DNA of 46,482 nucleotides from an uncultured Bacilli bacterium (GTDB taxonomy: Bacteria; Bacillota_I; Bacilli_A; RF39; UBA660), in contig CALVOL010000003.1 of the NCBI GenBank assembly GCA_944350285.1, forward strand, positions 1-46,482, read 5' to 3'. The first letter of the stretch is position 1. The number at the start of each line of letters is the position of its first letter. Under the pieces are notes generated by a model, which was given only the letters and a program-made list of their open reading frames with translations, was not told where the DNA came from and searched no databases. Position numbers and translations under genes: made by a program. Shown one piece after another: positions 1,973 to 21,391 of the stretch.

Positions 1973-2980
1973 TTAAAATAATGAACCCATATGATCAATT
2001 TTTAAATGGTCATAAGCTTTTTCACAAGCCATTCTTCCTCGTGGAGTTCTTTTGATAAATCCTTCCTGTAATAAAAACGGTTCTACAACATCTTCAATGG
2101 TCGATACTTCTTCGCCAATGCTGGTTGCAATGGTTTCGACTCCAACAGGTCCTCCATTGAATTTTGTGATTAAACTTGTTAAGTATTCCAAGTCGACAGA
2201 GTCTAGGCCATACTCATCTACTTTTAAACGTTTTAGAGAATTATCGGCTAGTTCTAAAGTGATTTTTTCATAACCTTCTACTAAAGCAAAATCACGTACT
2301 CGTTTAAAGAGACGATTGGCAATACGTGGAGTTTTCCGACATCGCTTGGCAATTAATCTGGCCGCATCCATCTCAATCGGCATATTTAGGACTCTGCTCG
2401 TTCGATTTACAATTTTACATAGTTCCTCCTCGCTATAATATTGCAGCTTAGAAACAATACCAAAACGATCTCTTAATGGTGCTGAAATATCACCAGCTCT
2501 TGTCGTTGCACCTACTAAAGTAAACGGTGGTAGATCAATTTTAATATTACGGCTTTTGCCATCACTATTTAAGACTAAATCCATTTCAAAGTCTTCCATA
2601 GCTGGATAGAGGATTTCTTCAATAAATTTTGGCATTCGATGAATTTCATCAATAAATAGCACATCGCCTGGTTCCAATGTCGATAAGATAGCCGCTAGGT
2701 CACCACTTTTTTCAATGGAAGGACCACTGGCTGTTTTAATATTGACACCTAACTCGTTTGCTATAATATGAGCAAGGGTTGTTTTTCCAAGACCTGGAGG
2801 CCCATATAATAGTACATGATCTAGTGACTCATTTCGGATTTTACTAGCTTCAATAAATACTTTTAAGTTGCTCGTTATTTCTTCTTGGCCGACATACTCT
2901 CTTAAGCTCTGTGGCCGAATATTGGTTTCAAACTCATCGCCTGCTTGTTCTTCGGCATCCATAATTTTCTCGTCGTCCAT
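1973..2980 (-). CDS. ruvB: Holliday junction branch migration DNA helicase RuvB
   Basis: RuvB is the hexameric AAA+ motor that, held by RuvA, drives branch migration of Holliday junctions in recombinational repair. About 335 residues, the normal length. Walker [11 protein letters not shown] is near residue 60, Walker [11 protein letters not shown] near 110, sensor 1 [10 protein letters not shown] near 155, the arginine finger segment LRDRFG near 170, and a C-terminal winged-helix ends it ([17 protein letters not shown]). The reading frame offers GTG-ATG-ATG in a row; the ATG at 2980 has the best spacing (7 bases) from AAAGGAGG. It follows ruvA by 13 bases. Confidence 0.97.
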
Positions 2981-2993
2981 CATCACTCCTCCT

Positions 2994-3548
2994 TTACTTT
3001 AATAATTGTTTTAAGGCTTCTTTTACTTGACTCTCAATAGGTAAACTCGCATCCATATGTGGCAAGATTTTTTTGATATCATTGGTCTTATACCCAAGTC
3101 CTTCTAAGACACTTACTAGTTCATCAAACCCAACGATCGATGGAGTCTCACCAACACTTGTAAGTTTTCCTTTTAAATCCAAAATAATTTGACGAGCCAC
3201 TTTATCGCCAACTTTCGGAAATTTTTTCAAATATAAAATATTTTCTCGATCAATTGCATCTATAATTCCAGCTACACTTCCAGTCGCAAGCATCGGCATA
3301 ATTAATTTTGGCCCTACTCCTTTGACATTTAATAGTTTTAAAAATAGTTCTTTTTCTTCTTTGCTTAAAAATCCATACAAGGAATGTTCATCTTCTTTAA
3401 TATGACTATAAATATATACTTTTGCTTCTTCGTTTAATGAATAGGAAAAAGGATTTGCCACAAAAATTTGATAGCCAATACCATTGTTTTCTAACACGAT
3501 ATAATTTGATTCTTGAATGCTTACGATTCCTTTTATATAACTATACAT
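2994..3548 (-). CDS. ruvA: Holliday junction branch migration protein RuvA
   Basis: RuvA binds four-way junctions as a tetramer and loads RuvB. The 184 residues are slightly short for the family. The N-terminal OB-fold begins [21 protein letters not shown]; the middle has the helix-hairpin-helix stretches [16 protein letters not shown] and [19 protein letters not shown]; the C-terminal RuvB-contact domain ends [12 protein letters not shown] modest GGTGAT lies upstream of the ATG. It is the first gene of the ruvA-ruvB-queA transcription unit; the 75-base gap upstream holds an AT-rich palindrome (ATGATATCAT) but no promoter I would stand behind. Confidence 0.96.
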
Positions 3549-3623
3549 AATATCACCGTAATAATGATATCATACAAACGTTTAAAAGAAAAGAGAACTT
3601 TCTTTCATTAACCAAATTATGGG

Positions 3624-4691
3624 TCATAGTGTTACTTTCCTGTTATATAGAAATTCTTTTGGGGGTTCTCCCTTGGAAATACAGTCCAAAAGATCTGGTT
3701 TGTCTTGATGAAGTCGATACATTAAAACTAACGCACTTGCTTCTTCTAGCTGCTTGTTTTGAACAAGCTCATTTATGACACGAAATACATACTGATAACC
3801 TGATGACATTTGGAAAAATAACTGCATGTAAAACCAAAAATCTACAAAGTTTTGTTTCTTTTTTAATTTTCGTTTTGTTTCTTTAGAAAACAGAAATAGC
3901 GTTCCACATTCTTCTAAATCTTTTTTCGATTTTAACCCCCCACATACATCATTCCAAACATTTTTAAACAGTACTTTTTCATAATATAAAAAGGAACTTT
4001 GTTCGATTTCTTCTAATGAAATTTCTTGGATAAAAATATTTTCCAACATTTTGGTATATAGGTTTTGGTTTGGCAACGAATATTGATCTTGAAAGACCAT
4101 TAGGGCAAAATAATTATTGAAATTTATCTTATATTCTTGCATTTTTTTAATCCCATCAAAGCAAGGTCTTGCTGCTATTTCAGAGGCTTCACTAAACTTT
4201 CTTTGTTTCATAAGAGCTTTGATGCGGTATTCTTCTACTAGATAATCTTTTTGATACTGTGGTGTATCGGTAAGAAGGAGAATTTGCTCATATTGTTTTT
4301 GTAAGAAAAGGCATTTTAATTTTTGCAAGAAAAAGCCTTCATAAGCAATGAAGTGATTACAAATTGCTATAGCTTTTTCATATTCTTTTAATTTTATTAG
4401 GCATTTCACACGAATTAATTGAAGTTTTCCTTCTTCTTGAAATTCTTCTTTTTCACATAAGGCTATTACATTTTCTAAATCTTTGTCTTTAACATCTTTT
4501 AACTTGCTTGCTAATGCATATATATAGAAATTGGTATTACCTGCAGGTAATTGTTTTAACTTTTCTACATAAATCGCATCGTCCAGAAGCCCTCCTTCTT
4601 TGCAATAGCGCATTGCTTTACAATAATTTTTTTGAGCAATTTCTTCTAATAGTTTTTGAAAAGATTCTTCTTTTAATTCTTCGTCTGTCAT
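3624..4691 (-). CDS. TPR-like helical repeat protein
   Basis: A 355-residue, entirely helical-looking soluble protein. Several pairs of helices with the character of tetratricopeptide-type repeats are visible, for example ALCEKEEFQEEGKLQLIRVK, CLIKLKEYEKAIAICNHFIA, CLFLQKQYEQILLLTD and ALMKQRKFSEASEIAARPC at residues about 80-185. The C-terminal half is less regular. The start is backed by AGGGGGT eight bases upstream. It lies downstream of the two pilin-like genes, separated by 24 bases, and may be co-transcribed with them; that would fit an assembly or scaffold role, but this is only inference. No enzyme motif is seen. Confidence 0.55.
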   Translation of the reverse strand: MTDEELKEESFQKLLEEIAQKNYCKAMRYCKEGGLLDDAIYVEKLKQLPAGNTNFYIYALASKLKDVKDKDLENVIALCEKEEFQEEGKLQLIRVKCLIKLKEYEKAIAICNHFIAYEGFFLQKLKCLFLQKQYEQILLLTDTPQYQKDYLVEEYRIKALMKQRKFSEASEIAARPCFDGIKKMQEYKINFNNYFALMVFQDQYSLPNQNLYTKMLENIFIQEISLEEIEQSSFLYYEKVLFKNVWNDVCGGLKSKKDLEECGTLFLFSKETKRKLKKKQNFVDFWFYMQLFFQMSSGYQYVFRVINELVQNKQLEEASALVLMYRLHQDKPDLLDCISKGEPPKEFLYNRKVTL

Positions 4692-5886: not shown

Positions 5887-5931
5887 GAAACCATCTGCTT
5901 TCTTGTATTATTATACTAAAAAATAAGACAG

Positions 5932-5962
5932 AAAAAAAGAATGAATTGTAAAGATTTCATTC
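5932..5962 (-). terminator. Rho-independent terminator of the amidohydrolase-carboxypeptidase gene
   Basis: On the minus strand GAATGAA and TTCATTC form a 7-bp stem with a 10-base loop, followed by seven T. The stem begins inside the TGA stop codon of the 5957-7246 gene. Confidence 0.8.
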
Positions 5963-15369: not shown

Positions 15370-15404
15370 TGACACGAATTTGTTTATTTAAAGGCTTAAG
15401 GTAA

Positions 15405-15440
15405 ATTATCAGGGATCCCCGATAATATTCCTTATCGGGG
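15405..15440. repeat. overlapping palindromes left of the recombinase element
   Basis: ATTATCAGGGATCCCCGATAAT (broken as ATTATC, AGGGATCCCC, GATAAT; 15405-15426) is a near-palindrome, and CCCCGATAA (15417-15425) pairs perfectly with TTATCGGGG (15432-15440) around a 6-base loop. The two share bases and exclude each other. ATTATCAGGG recurs inside the 86-bp repeat, so this looks like a degraded extra copy of the repeat end. Confidence 0.7.
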
Positions 15441-15517
15441 AATTAAGATTATCAGGGAAATTTTTAACCAAGCCTTTATTTAAGGCTTTTTCTTTTGCTA
15501 TTTTCCCTGATAATGTC
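15432..15517 (+). repeat. left 86-bp inverted repeat
   Basis: Matches the reverse complement of 16041-16126 at 80 of 86 positions with no gaps. It is itself palindromic: ATTATCAGGGAAA near its left end pairs with TTTCCCTGATAAT near its right end, and AAGCCTT-TATTT-AAGGCTT forms an inner hairpin. Confidence 0.92.
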
Positions 15518-15567
15518 TATAATAAATTTCGCTGGCAAAGGTGTCAGCAGGAAAGGATGTGGTATTT

Positions 15568-16041
15568 TTGAGTTACCCAGATTTTAAAACTCAAATCAAA
15601 GAGATACGAAGGGAGGCAATTGAAATAGGCTTTTCCATTTCAACTATGAATGGCTATGAAAGAATATGGAACAAGTTTATAAATTGGAAACAAGAAGAAC
15701 ATTTTGTATATCAAGAAGAAGATTATAATCAGTTTTTGTTGGAATACTATCACTTTGATGTTTCAACTTATACTTCCAAATCGAAGTCTAGACATCAAGA
15801 ACTGATGAGATCAAAAAGAATAGTAGATGACTTTGATACTTATAAGGAATGGATTCAAAGAAGATGTTTACCAAACAACTTATATTGTGAATATCCTAAA
15901 GAATGGAATCCAGTCGTTGAAAAGTATTTCACTTATTGTAAAGAAGAAAAAGAGAATGCTTCAAGCTCCATTAAATTGAAACAACAATTACCAGATTGGA
16001 ATGATGACAAGGATTTACTAAACCAGCTTTTAAATCTATAG
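15568..16041 (+). CDS. protein resembling the N-terminal (core-binding) part of a tyrosine recombinase
   Basis: About 157 residues, if read from the TTG at 15568, which has AAAGG some 11 bases upstream; in-frame GTG codons at 15541 and 15559 are alternatives. The segment FSISTMNGYERIWNKFINW and the later EEDYNQFLLEYYHFDV and SKSRHQELMRSKRIVDDFD have the helical pattern of the SAM-like DNA-binding domain of tyrosine recombinases. The catalytic domain with its R...HxxR...Y residues is absent: the frame ends at TAG exactly where the right inverted repeat begins. A hairpin GCTGGCA-AAGG-TGTCAGC (15531-15548) sits just upstream. It may be a stand-alone DNA-binding factor or a truncated gene. The family assignment is tentative. 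Confidence 0.5.
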   Translation: MSYPDFKTQIKEIRREAIEIGFSISTMNGYERIWNKFINWKQEEHFVYQEEDYNQFLLEYYHFDVSTYTSKSKSRHQELMRSKRIVDDFDTYKEWIQRRCLPNNLYCEYPKEWNPVVEKYFTYCKEEKENASSSIKLKQQLPDWNDDKDLLNQLLNL

Positions 16042-16126
16042 ACGTTATCAGGGAAAATAGCAAAAGAAAAGCCCTTAAATAAAGGCTTGATTAAGAATTT
16101 CCCTGATAATCTTAATTCCTCGATAA
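16041..16126 (-). repeat. right 86-bp inverted repeat
   Basis: Inverted partner of 15432-15517 (six mismatches, no gaps). Its outer 15 bases encode the last four codons and stop (LSRN, TAA) of the surface-protein gene on the minus strand. Confidence 0.92.
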
Positions 16127-17557
16127 TTGATATGGATTGGACTCACTGCCATCTCCTCCAAATATTTTTACGTTAGAAGATAAATATAATGCAGGAGAGA
16201 CAACAACATATGTATCGCGTGCGTAAGTATTAGCCACGAATCCTATCTTATCCACAAAGAATACAAGATTAGAAGTACTTGAATCCGGGGTCAATGTCCA
16301 TTGATAAATTCCACTCTTATATAACCAGTTATTATTATAACAATCTTCGTAATTACGCCAATCATACAAAGTATAAGATAAACATATATTTCTATTTGTA
16401 TTAATTCCTCCGCTGGTTGCATATCCATAATCACTTGGATACATTAATCCGATTTGTCCTGTCCATTCGGTTGGTCTACCGCTATAAACCTCTGTACCTC
16501 TTTCATATGTATAATAAGTAGAAGTAACATTTGTAAGTGAAGATAAGCCTCCTAAACTCCAGATAGCATCATTGAGCATCTCCTTATATGGACTTTGAAT
16601 TCCATTCAAATAAATGGTATTCAATTCCTCCTGTAAAGTGGCAATACTCCAATCATTTACATTACCAGTATTCCATGCCATGCCCATGCTATATGGCTCA
16701 TCCTTAATAATTTTCAGTCTTGATTCTTTGTTACCATTTCCATCCTCGATATTATTCATTACTCCTATGATGCGCCATAATTCATTATTAAAAGACACAT
16801 AGTTATTTGGATCTGCTCCTATATATCTTAAATTATTATCTACCGTTTCATCATATACGAGTTCTTCACTCTTTTCGGCATTCTTGATCATACAATTTGA
16901 TGCTGTATCGTCACATAATGCTAATGCTTCACTAAAACTTATCTTTTCATTAATAATTCTTACACTGATAGTTCCACTAAAAGTAAGTCCTTGTTGATTA
17001 TCTTGATTGCCATTGTTCTTATAATGATACACTAAATAATAGGTTGTTTTCTCAAGTGTACTTACATCAAAGTCTGCTTGCTCTAATATGATTTGAGAGT
17101 TATTTGTAAATGTTCCTTGATATACTAATTCTGGTGTTCCTGTAATATTTAAACTATCTTCTTGATAGAGTTGTTCATTCTCTAATGTTGGATCTGCTAC
17201 ATCTACTGTAATGTTATTACTAATTGGATCAGTTGTTTTATACAAACTAATTTCAATATCTGTTCCAAATTCACTTGGTAATACTCCTGCTAAATCTATT
17301 TCATAAATTCCTATACCATTATCCGAATTCTTTTCGATGGTAAATTCCTGAATTCCTATTTGTCCTGGTAATAAATCATACGATGTAAATACTTTCGTTC
17401 CTGTCCAAAGAATACTTCCTAATCGTTCTGTTGTGATGTTTAAATTCGTTTCATTTCCATCATTTTGATTATTCACTGCAAAGTAGGCTAGTGACACTCC
17501 TATTCCTACTACTAATGTACAAATTATTACTATTAAAATTGTTATTTTTTTGTTCAT
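16112..17557 (-). CDS. surface-exposed protein with N-terminal membrane segment and DUF6273-like C-terminal domain
   Basis: A 481-residue exported protein. The N-terminus MNKKITILIVIICTLVVGIG, then VSLAYFAVNNQ, is a signal anchor of the type seen in camelysin/TasA-like proteins. Residues about 40-210 are a beta-rich domain. The C-terminal part from about 235 (NELWRIIGVM, RLKIIKDEPYSMGMAWN, GLMYPSDYGYATSGG, CLSYTLYDWRNY, WTLTPDSSTSNLVFFV, GGDGSESNPYQL) follows a pattern found in many copies per genome in gut Mollicute-like bacteria (DUF6273-type, named from memory). I use the ATG at 17557, with AAAGGTG upstream. The last four codons lie inside the right repeat of the recombinase element, so the natural C-terminus may have been altered. 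Confidence 0.75.
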   Translation of the reverse strand: MNKKITILIVIICTLVVGIGVSLAYFAVNNQNDGNETNLNITTERLGSILWTGTKVFTSYDLLPGQIGIQEFTIEKNSDNGIGIYEIDLAGVLPSEFGTDIEISLYKTTDPISNNITVDVADPTLENEQLYQEDSLNITGTPELVYQGTFTNNSQIILEQADFDVSTLEKTTYYLVYHYKNNGNQDNQQGLTFSGTISVRIINEKISFSEALALCDDTASNCMIKNAEKSEELVYDETVDNNLRYIGADPNNYVSFNNELWRIIGVMNNIEDGNGNKESRLKIIKDEPYSMGMAWNTGNVNDWSIATLQEELNTIYLNGIQSPYKEMLNDAIWSLGGLSSLTNVTSTYYTYERGTEVYSGRPTEWTGQIGLMYPSDYGYATSGGINTNRNICLSYTLYDWRNYEDCYNNNWLYKSGIYQWTLTPDSSTSNLVFFVDKIGFVANTYARDTYVVVSPALYLSSNVKIFGGDGSESNPYQLSRN

Positions 17558-17646
17558 TTTACTCACCTTTTCTTTGGGGCATCTACTTTTTAGTATTCTC
17601 TATTTCAGTTTATCATAAACCGCACATTATCTCAACTTTAGAGTAT

Positions 17647-20512: not shown

Positions 20513-21391
20513 TTATTTCCTTGGCATTTTCTTGAAATATTCTTGTCTTAAATAATCGCTGGTTAAATGCGTATATATTTGAGTCGTACTAAGTTTTTCG
20601 TGTCCTAATAATTCTTGAACCGTTCTAATATCTGCTCCATTTTCTAACATGTGTGTTGCAAAGGTATGGCGAAGAGTGTGGGCAGAAATGTGATGGTTTA
20701 AGGAAGCCTCCTCTACTCTCTTATAAATGATTTCTTCCGCTGTTCGACGGTTCATGGGGGTGCCATGTAAATTTAAAAACAGGTAGTCCGTTGGTTTTTT
20801 TATAAGTCTTTCTCGTACATTTAAATAATCTATAATAGCATCTTTGGCGTAATCACCAAAGAAGACAATCCGTTCCTTTTTTCCTTTTCCTAAAACACGG
20901 ATACTTTGTTCCGAAAAGTTTATATCTTTGAGTTTAATAGAAACGAGTTCGCTAATCCGTAATCCTGTTGCATAAAAAAGTTCAAATAAAGCTCTCGTCA
21001 TATAATCTTTTGGTTTTTCACATTCTGAAAACTTAAATAATTCACGAATTTCTTCATTATTTAAGACGTTTGGCAACTTTCTTTTGATTTTTGGGTTGTG
21101 AATCGTTTTAAAGATATTATTATCGATAAGTTCTTTTTGTTTTAAATAATTATAAAAGCTTCTAATCGCGCTGATATGACGAGAAATAGAAGTATTAGAA
21201 TAACCAAGAGTATCTAAATATTTTAAGTATTCCCAGATTTCATCTTTTGTGATTTTTTTAAAATCAATCTGATGTTCTTCTAAATAGTTTTGAAATTTGG
21301 CAAGTTCATTTTGATAGCCACTTATCGTATTATCACTGTAAGAACGAACATTTTTTATATAATTTAAATACTCCTCTGCTTGAGTTGTCAT
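20513..21391 (-). CDS. tyrosine recombinase XerC/XerD-like
   Basis: A 292-residue site-specific recombinase of Xer length. The N-terminal SAM-like domain (1-105) reads YSDNTISGYQNELAKFQNYL and SISRHISAIRSFYNYLKQK. All catalytic residues are in place: Arg145 in ATGLRISEL, Lys169 in GKGKKER, His238 and Arg241 in HTLRHTFATH, His264 in LLGHEKLSTTQ, and the nucleophile Tyr273 in IYTHL. Chromosome dimer resolution with FtsK is the likely job, but a single-recombinase XerS/XerH-type or element-linked role cannot be excluded. It could also be the enzyme acting on the inverted-repeat element at 15432-16126. Its stop is 18 bases before the Nudix gene and its start 18 bases after the coiled-coil gene. 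Confidence 0.9.
   Translation of the reverse strand: MTTQAEEYLNYIKNVRSYSDNTISGYQNELAKFQNYLEEHQIDFKKITKDEIWEYLKYLDTLGYSNTSISRHISAIRSFYNYLKQKELIDNNIFKTIHNPKIKRKLPNVLNNEEIRELFKFSECEKPKDYMTRALFELFYATGLRISELVSIKLKDINFSEQSIRVLGKGKKERIVFFGDYAKDAIIDYLNVRERLIKKPTDYLFLNLHGTPMNRRTAEEIIYKRVEEASLNHHISAHTLRHTFATHMLENGADIRTVQELLGHEKLSTTQIYTHLTSDYLRQEYFKKMPRK

Follow-up and report, generated by a model that had tools for sequence, protein, structure and literature searches.

A miniature, non-autonomous derivative of a Recombinase-In-Trio element at the 3′ end of a surface-protein-like gene in an uncultured Bacilli bacterium

A fused recombinase remnant between long inverted repeats

The window (the whole 46,482-nt stretch of DNA that was analysed, from the genome of an uncultured Bacilli bacterium) carries a short open reading frame enclosed by two long inverted repeats, at the 3′ end of a gene from a multi-copy family. 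The features of this locus are as follows, with 6-mers given in gene orientation where indicated.

15400-15405, minus strand: native target 6-mer TTTACC (gene orientation), then native TTAAGCCTTTAA (L S L stop); the empty site of a close relative (G030) has the same sequence
15406-15425, no strand: 20-bp palindrome TTATCAGGGATCCCCGATAA, belonging to the inserted unit and present at one side only; missing from empty sites
15426-15431, no strand: internal 6-bp spacer TATTCC separating the palindrome from the element end; a 6-mer occupies the same position with the same polarity in the sampled elements
15432-15519, plus strand: left terminal inverted repeat, matching the C9 copy's right end at 97% identity (see below); contains h+ TTATCGGGGA, a second h+ TTATCAGGGA, hairpin AAGCCTTTATTTAAGGCTT and an inner h- TTCCCTGATAA
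15470-15488, plus strand: terminator-like hairpin facing inward, in the left repeat
15495-15523, plus strand: promoter-like TTGCTA-17-TATAAT over the inner h- of the left repeat, 5′ of the ORF (consensus match only)
15568 (TTG)-16041 (TAG), plus strand: 157-codon ORF with its stop at the inner edge of the right repeat
16039-16126, minus strand: right terminal inverted repeat, the outer part of which forms the last codons (LSRN) and the stop of the host gene
16069-16088, minus strand: terminator-like hairpin facing inward, in the right repeat
16112-17566, minus strand: target gene, of a multi-copy surface-protein-like family with native C-terminus ...P[FY]xLSL
16127-16132, minus strand: 6-mer TATCAA (gene orientation) at the gene-side junction

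An inverted-repeat search of the window returned arms at 15425-15521 and 16037-16133 (97 nt, 91% complementary), and a second, separate search gave 93% over 90 nt, bearing out the long repeats around a single gene that a sequence-only reading of this DNA had described. That reading also had each repeat folding into a hairpin and the gene stopping at the repeat edge, and both statements held: folded as single-stranded DNA, the left arm with the outer palindrome (z = −6.3) and the right arm (z = −3.5) each scored better than 200/200 shuffles, and the stop codon at 16041 coincides with the inner edge of the right repeat. From repeat to repeat the element spans 15432-16126 (695 bp), exactly the limits first proposed, but comparison with empty sites sets the true inserted unit at 15406-16132, that is, the element with the 6-bp spacer and the 20-bp palindrome at one of its sides, together with one additional 6-mer. 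In gene orientation the arrangement reads CCA-TATCAA-TTATCGAGG...element...CCCCGATAA-GGAATA-TTATCGGGGATCCCTGATAA-TTTACC-TTAAGCC. The two terminator-like hairpins compare with 0.5 expected, and the number of promoter-like consensus matches was not above chance. Between the repeats there is no gene besides the ORF, Rfam matched nothing in the window, and no tRNA was found as insertion target.

Another contig of the same genome (C9, locus L010) contains three consecutive tyrosine recombinase genes, a near full-length ritA-ritB-ritC set with ritA from about 1215, ritB at 2428-3354 and ritC at 3341-4303. Such trios are known as Recombinase-In-Trio (RIT) elements (Van Houdt 2009/2012, PMC3414803; Ricker 2013, cited in PMC10214605 and PMC8138268). 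The window aligns with C9 in two blocks, one covering the start of ritA (90% DNA identity; 89% over 494 bp) and the other the last ritC codons with the right repeat (92-94% identity; 94% over 151 bp). Accordingly, the ORF at 15568-16041 encodes roughly the first 141 residues of RitA, followed in the same frame by the final 18 of RitC (LPDWNDDKDLLNQLLNL), and about 2.6 kb is missing, from ritA codon ~141 to 18 codons before the ritC stop, leaving the unit with neither ritB nor either catalytic domain. The sequence-only reading had the element fitting no class familiar to the reader, which these comparisons do not support: it derives by deletion from the RIT class, represented in this genome by a nearly full-length copy. 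The suggestion that the protein is only part of a tyrosine recombinase was supported, the part being N-terminal RitA.

The 157-residue protein contains no catalytic residue and has lost nearly all of the SAM-like core-binding domain (RitA 117-195, Pfam). According to a published description (PMC8138268), RitA proteins carry two core-binding domains in sequence, and RitC proteins have an additional helix at the C-terminus; on that basis, what the window protein retains is the first of the two RitA domains and the tail of RitC. This conserved tail is predicted to be helical in the fusion at low confidence, and the structure model of the window protein alone was poor (mean pLDDT 52). Searched alone, the 157-aa protein had no significant match in Pfam, NCBIfam or PADLOC, and only a weak transposase match in PHROGs (E = 0.003).

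Complete trios and the proteins they encode

C9 is the only near-complete trio assembled in the source genome and its left end is divergent. Its ritA is frameshifted near 2195-2231, so the C9 trio may itself be inactive. The C9 element is a mosaic, with a left-end core TTATCTATCGAATAATA (present twice) unlike the right-end TTATCAGGGA type (ends at L010 1075-1165 and 4305-4420). The source genome is an 84%-complete draft in which several RIT ends fall at contig ends; an active partner may thus exist outside the assembled contigs. Contigs C97 and C69, considered as possible autonomous partners on account of their size, were rejected, as neither is a RIT trio.

An intact element was found in another uncultured Bacilli metagenome-assembled genome (L055), where 90-nt repeats that are 99% complementary enclose 3146 nt with overlapping ritA, ritB and ritC genes coding for proteins of 407, 312 and 323 aa, the last ending in LPDWNDDENLLNQLLNL. 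Additional trios of the same family, with inverted repeats of 64-94 nt, occur at L147, L149, L150 and L153, and L146 has a 34-nt inverted-repeat match at its contig ends. Three adjacent overlapping rit genes were found in L055, L147, L149, L150, L153 and others, with no gene beyond these three between the repeats of complete trios; the window unit lacks the trio and has both ends and gene remnants homologous to RIT. The L055 RitA protein has a Pfam SAM-like domain at 117-195 and a catalytic domain at 222-390, preceded by about 110 residues, an additional N-terminal domain in front of the usual core-binding one. Its AlphaFold model places helices at 3-99 with good confidence; a structure search with this model confirmed the tyrosine-recombinase fold for residues 110-404, the part covered, and profile comparison matched the second RitA domain well to known core-binding domains. 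The first RitA domain is reported to be a core-binding domain as well (PMC8138268). In RitC, the conserved tail LPDWNDDxxLLxQLLNL lies past the catalytic domain.

Matches to the L055 RitA query include RITs named in the literature, on pHG1 of Cupriavidus necator H16 and on Dinoroseobacter shibae plasmids (PMC3414803). No inverted repeats turned up in a quick scan around the trios of D. shibae, pHG1 and B. finegoldii. In D. shibae pDSHI01 (L157, about 4030-4060), a palindrome TTATCCAAAGCTTTGGATAA lies directly outside the shared RIT sequence and is absent from the corresponding end in pDSHI03; the RIT end architecture may extend to Alphaproteobacteria.

Insertion units, targets and empty sites

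The same plan of target, 6 bp, element, 6 bp, 20-bp palindrome, 6 bp and target was found, embedded in unrelated sequence, in L055, L147, L150, Ruminococcus albus pRUMAL02 and a Priestia plasmid, while L149 and L153 have the palindrome at one end; inverted repeats with a palindrome at the ends are common to these elements and the window unit. All three 6-mers are alike in R. albus (GAGATT) and in Priestia (GTTGAC). At the window unit the flanking 6-mers TATCAA and TTTACC differ, so the sequence-only reading was literally correct that no target duplication is seen, but identical 6-mers flank five related elements or remnants. Overall, the outer 6-mers are identical in 5 of 10 elements or remnants and different in the other 5, which fits a 6-bp strand-exchange overlap with one junction carrying the bases of the target and the other those of the element. 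The window 6-mer TATCAA, being unlike the native one, is read as carried in with the element in the manner of a coupling sequence.

In insertions at the 3′ end of a gene-family member, the palindrome is always on the downstream side. The rit genes lie in either orientation, with the target gene on the ritA side in C9, L053 and L147 and on the ritC side in the window, L055 and L063. Relative to the element end, the internal 6-mer keeps one polarity in all cases read. From this arrangement we infer that each element end is usable with the palindrome as partner arm. The L150 RIT (2480-2536, 5908-5960) is flanked by the 6-bp repeat CGTGAA, and its flanks, which look like a repeat-rich surface gene, would if joined give NVNNNGNVNNN-like codons.

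The window repeat has 9 matching places in the source genome, a dispersal that would also be expected of a common intergenic repeat flanking a gene fragment by chance. The copies, however, either terminate RITs, complete or partial, or stand alone as remnants at the target motif shared by these elements, and since complete elements carry these repeats we rejected an unrelated intergenic repeat, an origin we regard as having practically no likelihood. RIT remnants are common in relatives, where G001 has a different internal deletion and G013 only a ritC end. Gene-less remnants also occur: one of 37 bp (h+ h+ h-; L068, G033:C9:7270) is flanked by identical 6-mers TTTGTA, and another (L071, G017:C12:23078), with a single repeat and the palindrome, by identical 6-mers TTCAAA. 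A solitary palindrome TTATCAAGGATCCCTGATAA with no adjoining element (L060, G000:C44:7680-7699) may be a scar or a target.

Empty sites were identified in two close relatives. In G030, 5′ of ppdK, the window flanks are joined without the element (...GGCTTAAGGTAAATGGATTAGACTCAC...), and the ppdK product is 99% identical to that of the window over its first 200 residues; a second empty site at the same place, with TTCATC, is present in G016. The native gene end, CCA-TTTACC-TTAAGCCTTTAA in gene orientation, codes for N P F T L S L stop, and in silico removal of the window unit restores the native C-terminus ...NPFTLSL stop. Removal of the unit with one 6-mer likewise gave open frames of 400 codons in R. 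albus and 399 in Priestia. Judged from these empty sites, the window insertion is younger than the split from these two relatives.

The target family has 41 matches in the source genome; it is large and partly tandem with a conserved C-terminal motif, uninterrupted members ending mostly in P[FY]xLSL, and no Pfam or NCBIfam family matched it. The first bases of the element, TTATCAGGGAATTAG, extend the host frame as L S G N stop, LSRN in the window and usually LSGN. As the repeat supplies the last codons, the stop and a terminator-like hairpin, insertion would be almost neutral for the host gene. In L013 (G000:C15, 60-200), a truncated RIT end is inserted inside a gene (TTPYS motif), not at the gene's 3′ end, and carries the 6-mer TATTCC, the same as the internal spacer in the window. 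At L055 (about 130-176), the end of another RIT type (TTATCACAATAAAATAGTTATCAC, as in L147) lies outside the palindrome, which suggests repeated RIT insertion at one gene end.

These observations lead us to propose, with a probability of roughly 0.92, that the window unit is a miniature non-autonomous RIT derivative that entered by site-specific recombination of the tyrosine-recombinase type, using a 6-bp overlap. Each end carries short half-sites (h = TTATCAGGGA) around a hairpin. The 20-bp palindrome has the form h+h-, and 6 bp lie at each of three junctions: between one target arm and the element, between the element and the palindrome, and between the palindrome and the other target arm. 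In the proposed mechanism, Rit recombinases would excise the unit as a circle at junctions that probably consist of the palindrome half-site (h-), 6 bp and the element end (h+), and the core of the circle would then recombine with CCN-T[AT][TC]NNN-TTA at the 3′ ends of the multi-copy gene family, with CCATTTACCTTAAGC as a candidate target sequence. The 6 bp would act as the strand-exchange overlap, as does the coupling sequence in Tn916/Tn1549-type integration, and after integration the element end would provide the gene with its last codons, stop and terminator-like hairpin. The geometry of the sites is what points to Rit recombination at h-6 bp-h cores.

This h-6 bp-h core resembles the geometry of Xer/dif-type sites, and with rit genes in both orientations relative to the target gene, inversion of RITs between their ends is possible. 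Both points would suit the earlier suggestion of an invertible or cassette-like unit on which the XerD-like recombinase encoded at 20513-21391 acts in trans. That gene, however, is one of several tyrosine recombinase genes in the genome and lies outside the unit, and complete RITs with their own recombinases share the same ends, which makes the Rit trios the natural enzymes. A Xer-dependent cassette was rejected on these grounds, and we consider it very improbable.

Origin and possible activity of the window copy

The element had been supposed to be non-autonomous, which its status as a RIT deletion derivative supports: it cannot move by itself, although complete Rit proteins, and not the XerD-like protein, may mobilise it in trans. 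Plain truncation of a complete recombinase, to be recognized in relatives at the same locus, had been named as a contrary finding. Complete recombinases do occur in relatives, at other loci, but the window copy arose by internal deletion and retains both ends. No second copy of the exact deletion was found, viral contigs included, and the deletion could have happened in place.

A full RIT that inserted here and then lost its middle in place would leave a dead relic never mobile in its window form, and to this history we assign slightly less than even odds. RIT remnants are common in relatives, as in G001 and G013, and the window ends have diverged to 91-93% compared with 99% in intact L055. 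On the other hand, both ends, the palindrome and the junctions are intact, and the insertion postdates the split from two close relatives.

The fusion protein might instead be a trans-acting regulator that binds the ends or docks on Rit subunits and represses transposition. Its frame remained open and in phase after the deletion, a promoter-like site is retained, and so, by the published description, are both features that distinguish Rit proteins, the first RitA core-binding domain and the extra RitC C-terminal helix. An in-frame join is, however, expected by chance in 1 of 3 cases, the same fusion was not found in a second copy, and the window protein gave a poor model. Codon changes unique to the window ORF number 3 synonymous to 5 non-synonymous, compared with 9:6 and 9:5 in two full ritA genes; they are too few to decide on selection and lean toward relaxed constraint. 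We view a regulatory role as unlikely. Equally doubtful is the broader proposal that mini-RITs are moved in trans by complete RITs, that the fused CB1-RitC-tail protein functions to inhibit or regulate its parent element, and that the one-sided palindrome is a portable stand-in for a target arm, allowing integration by either end.

Significance and comparison with known systems

The window feature is real and represents a defective form derived from a known class, and its relatives are unusually informative. Its related loci define the inserted unit of RIT elements to the base through empty sites in two relatives, frames restored in three other elements, a 6-bp overlap and a one-sided palindrome, and point to gene 3′ ends as safe-harbour targets, with the stop codon coming from the element. 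With units defined at this level, how three recombinases cooperate becomes testable with short synthetic DNA, for which the 695-bp window copy is a natural minimal substrate. RITs are widespread, and the 2012 RIT paper considered their mobility still to be shown and their ends unclear (PMC3414803). The one-sided 20-bp palindrome with 6-bp spacers was only hinted at there, as an 'overlapping palindromic sequence' (PMC3414803). The base-level definition of RIT insertion units is the most valuable result, although Ricker 2013 may in part describe it.

The window unit shares with RITs the ends of complete overlapping ritA-ritB-ritC trios, which have about 3.1-3.3 kb between inverted repeats, and it keeps the RitA start and the RitC C-terminal tail; it differs in having lost ritB, both catalytic domains and 2.6 kb, and its repeats measure 86-97 bp compared with the 28-29 or 34 bp quoted for RITs in the literature. 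GInt and SE elements likewise use three tyrosine recombinases acting together and show target specificity, and SE circles carry a 6-bp flank. They are, however, large islands with a fourth conserved protein (GinD/Srap), whereas the window unit is small and insertion-sequence-like with long inverted repeats, and neither it nor the complete trios carry GinD/Srap or a large cargo island.

Tn916/Tn1549 also rely on a tyrosine recombinase and a short overlap (6 bp in the window unit) that may differ between junctions, but have one integrase together with conjugation genes, and we know of no one-sided palindrome in integration of this type. MITEs and internally deleted transposons such as the P-element KP resemble the window unit in their intact ends, missing transposase and fused remnant ORF, although they derive from DDE transposons and the window unit from a tyrosine-recombinase element. 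The KP protein of Drosophila P elements would be the parallel for the possible repressor role of the window fusion protein.
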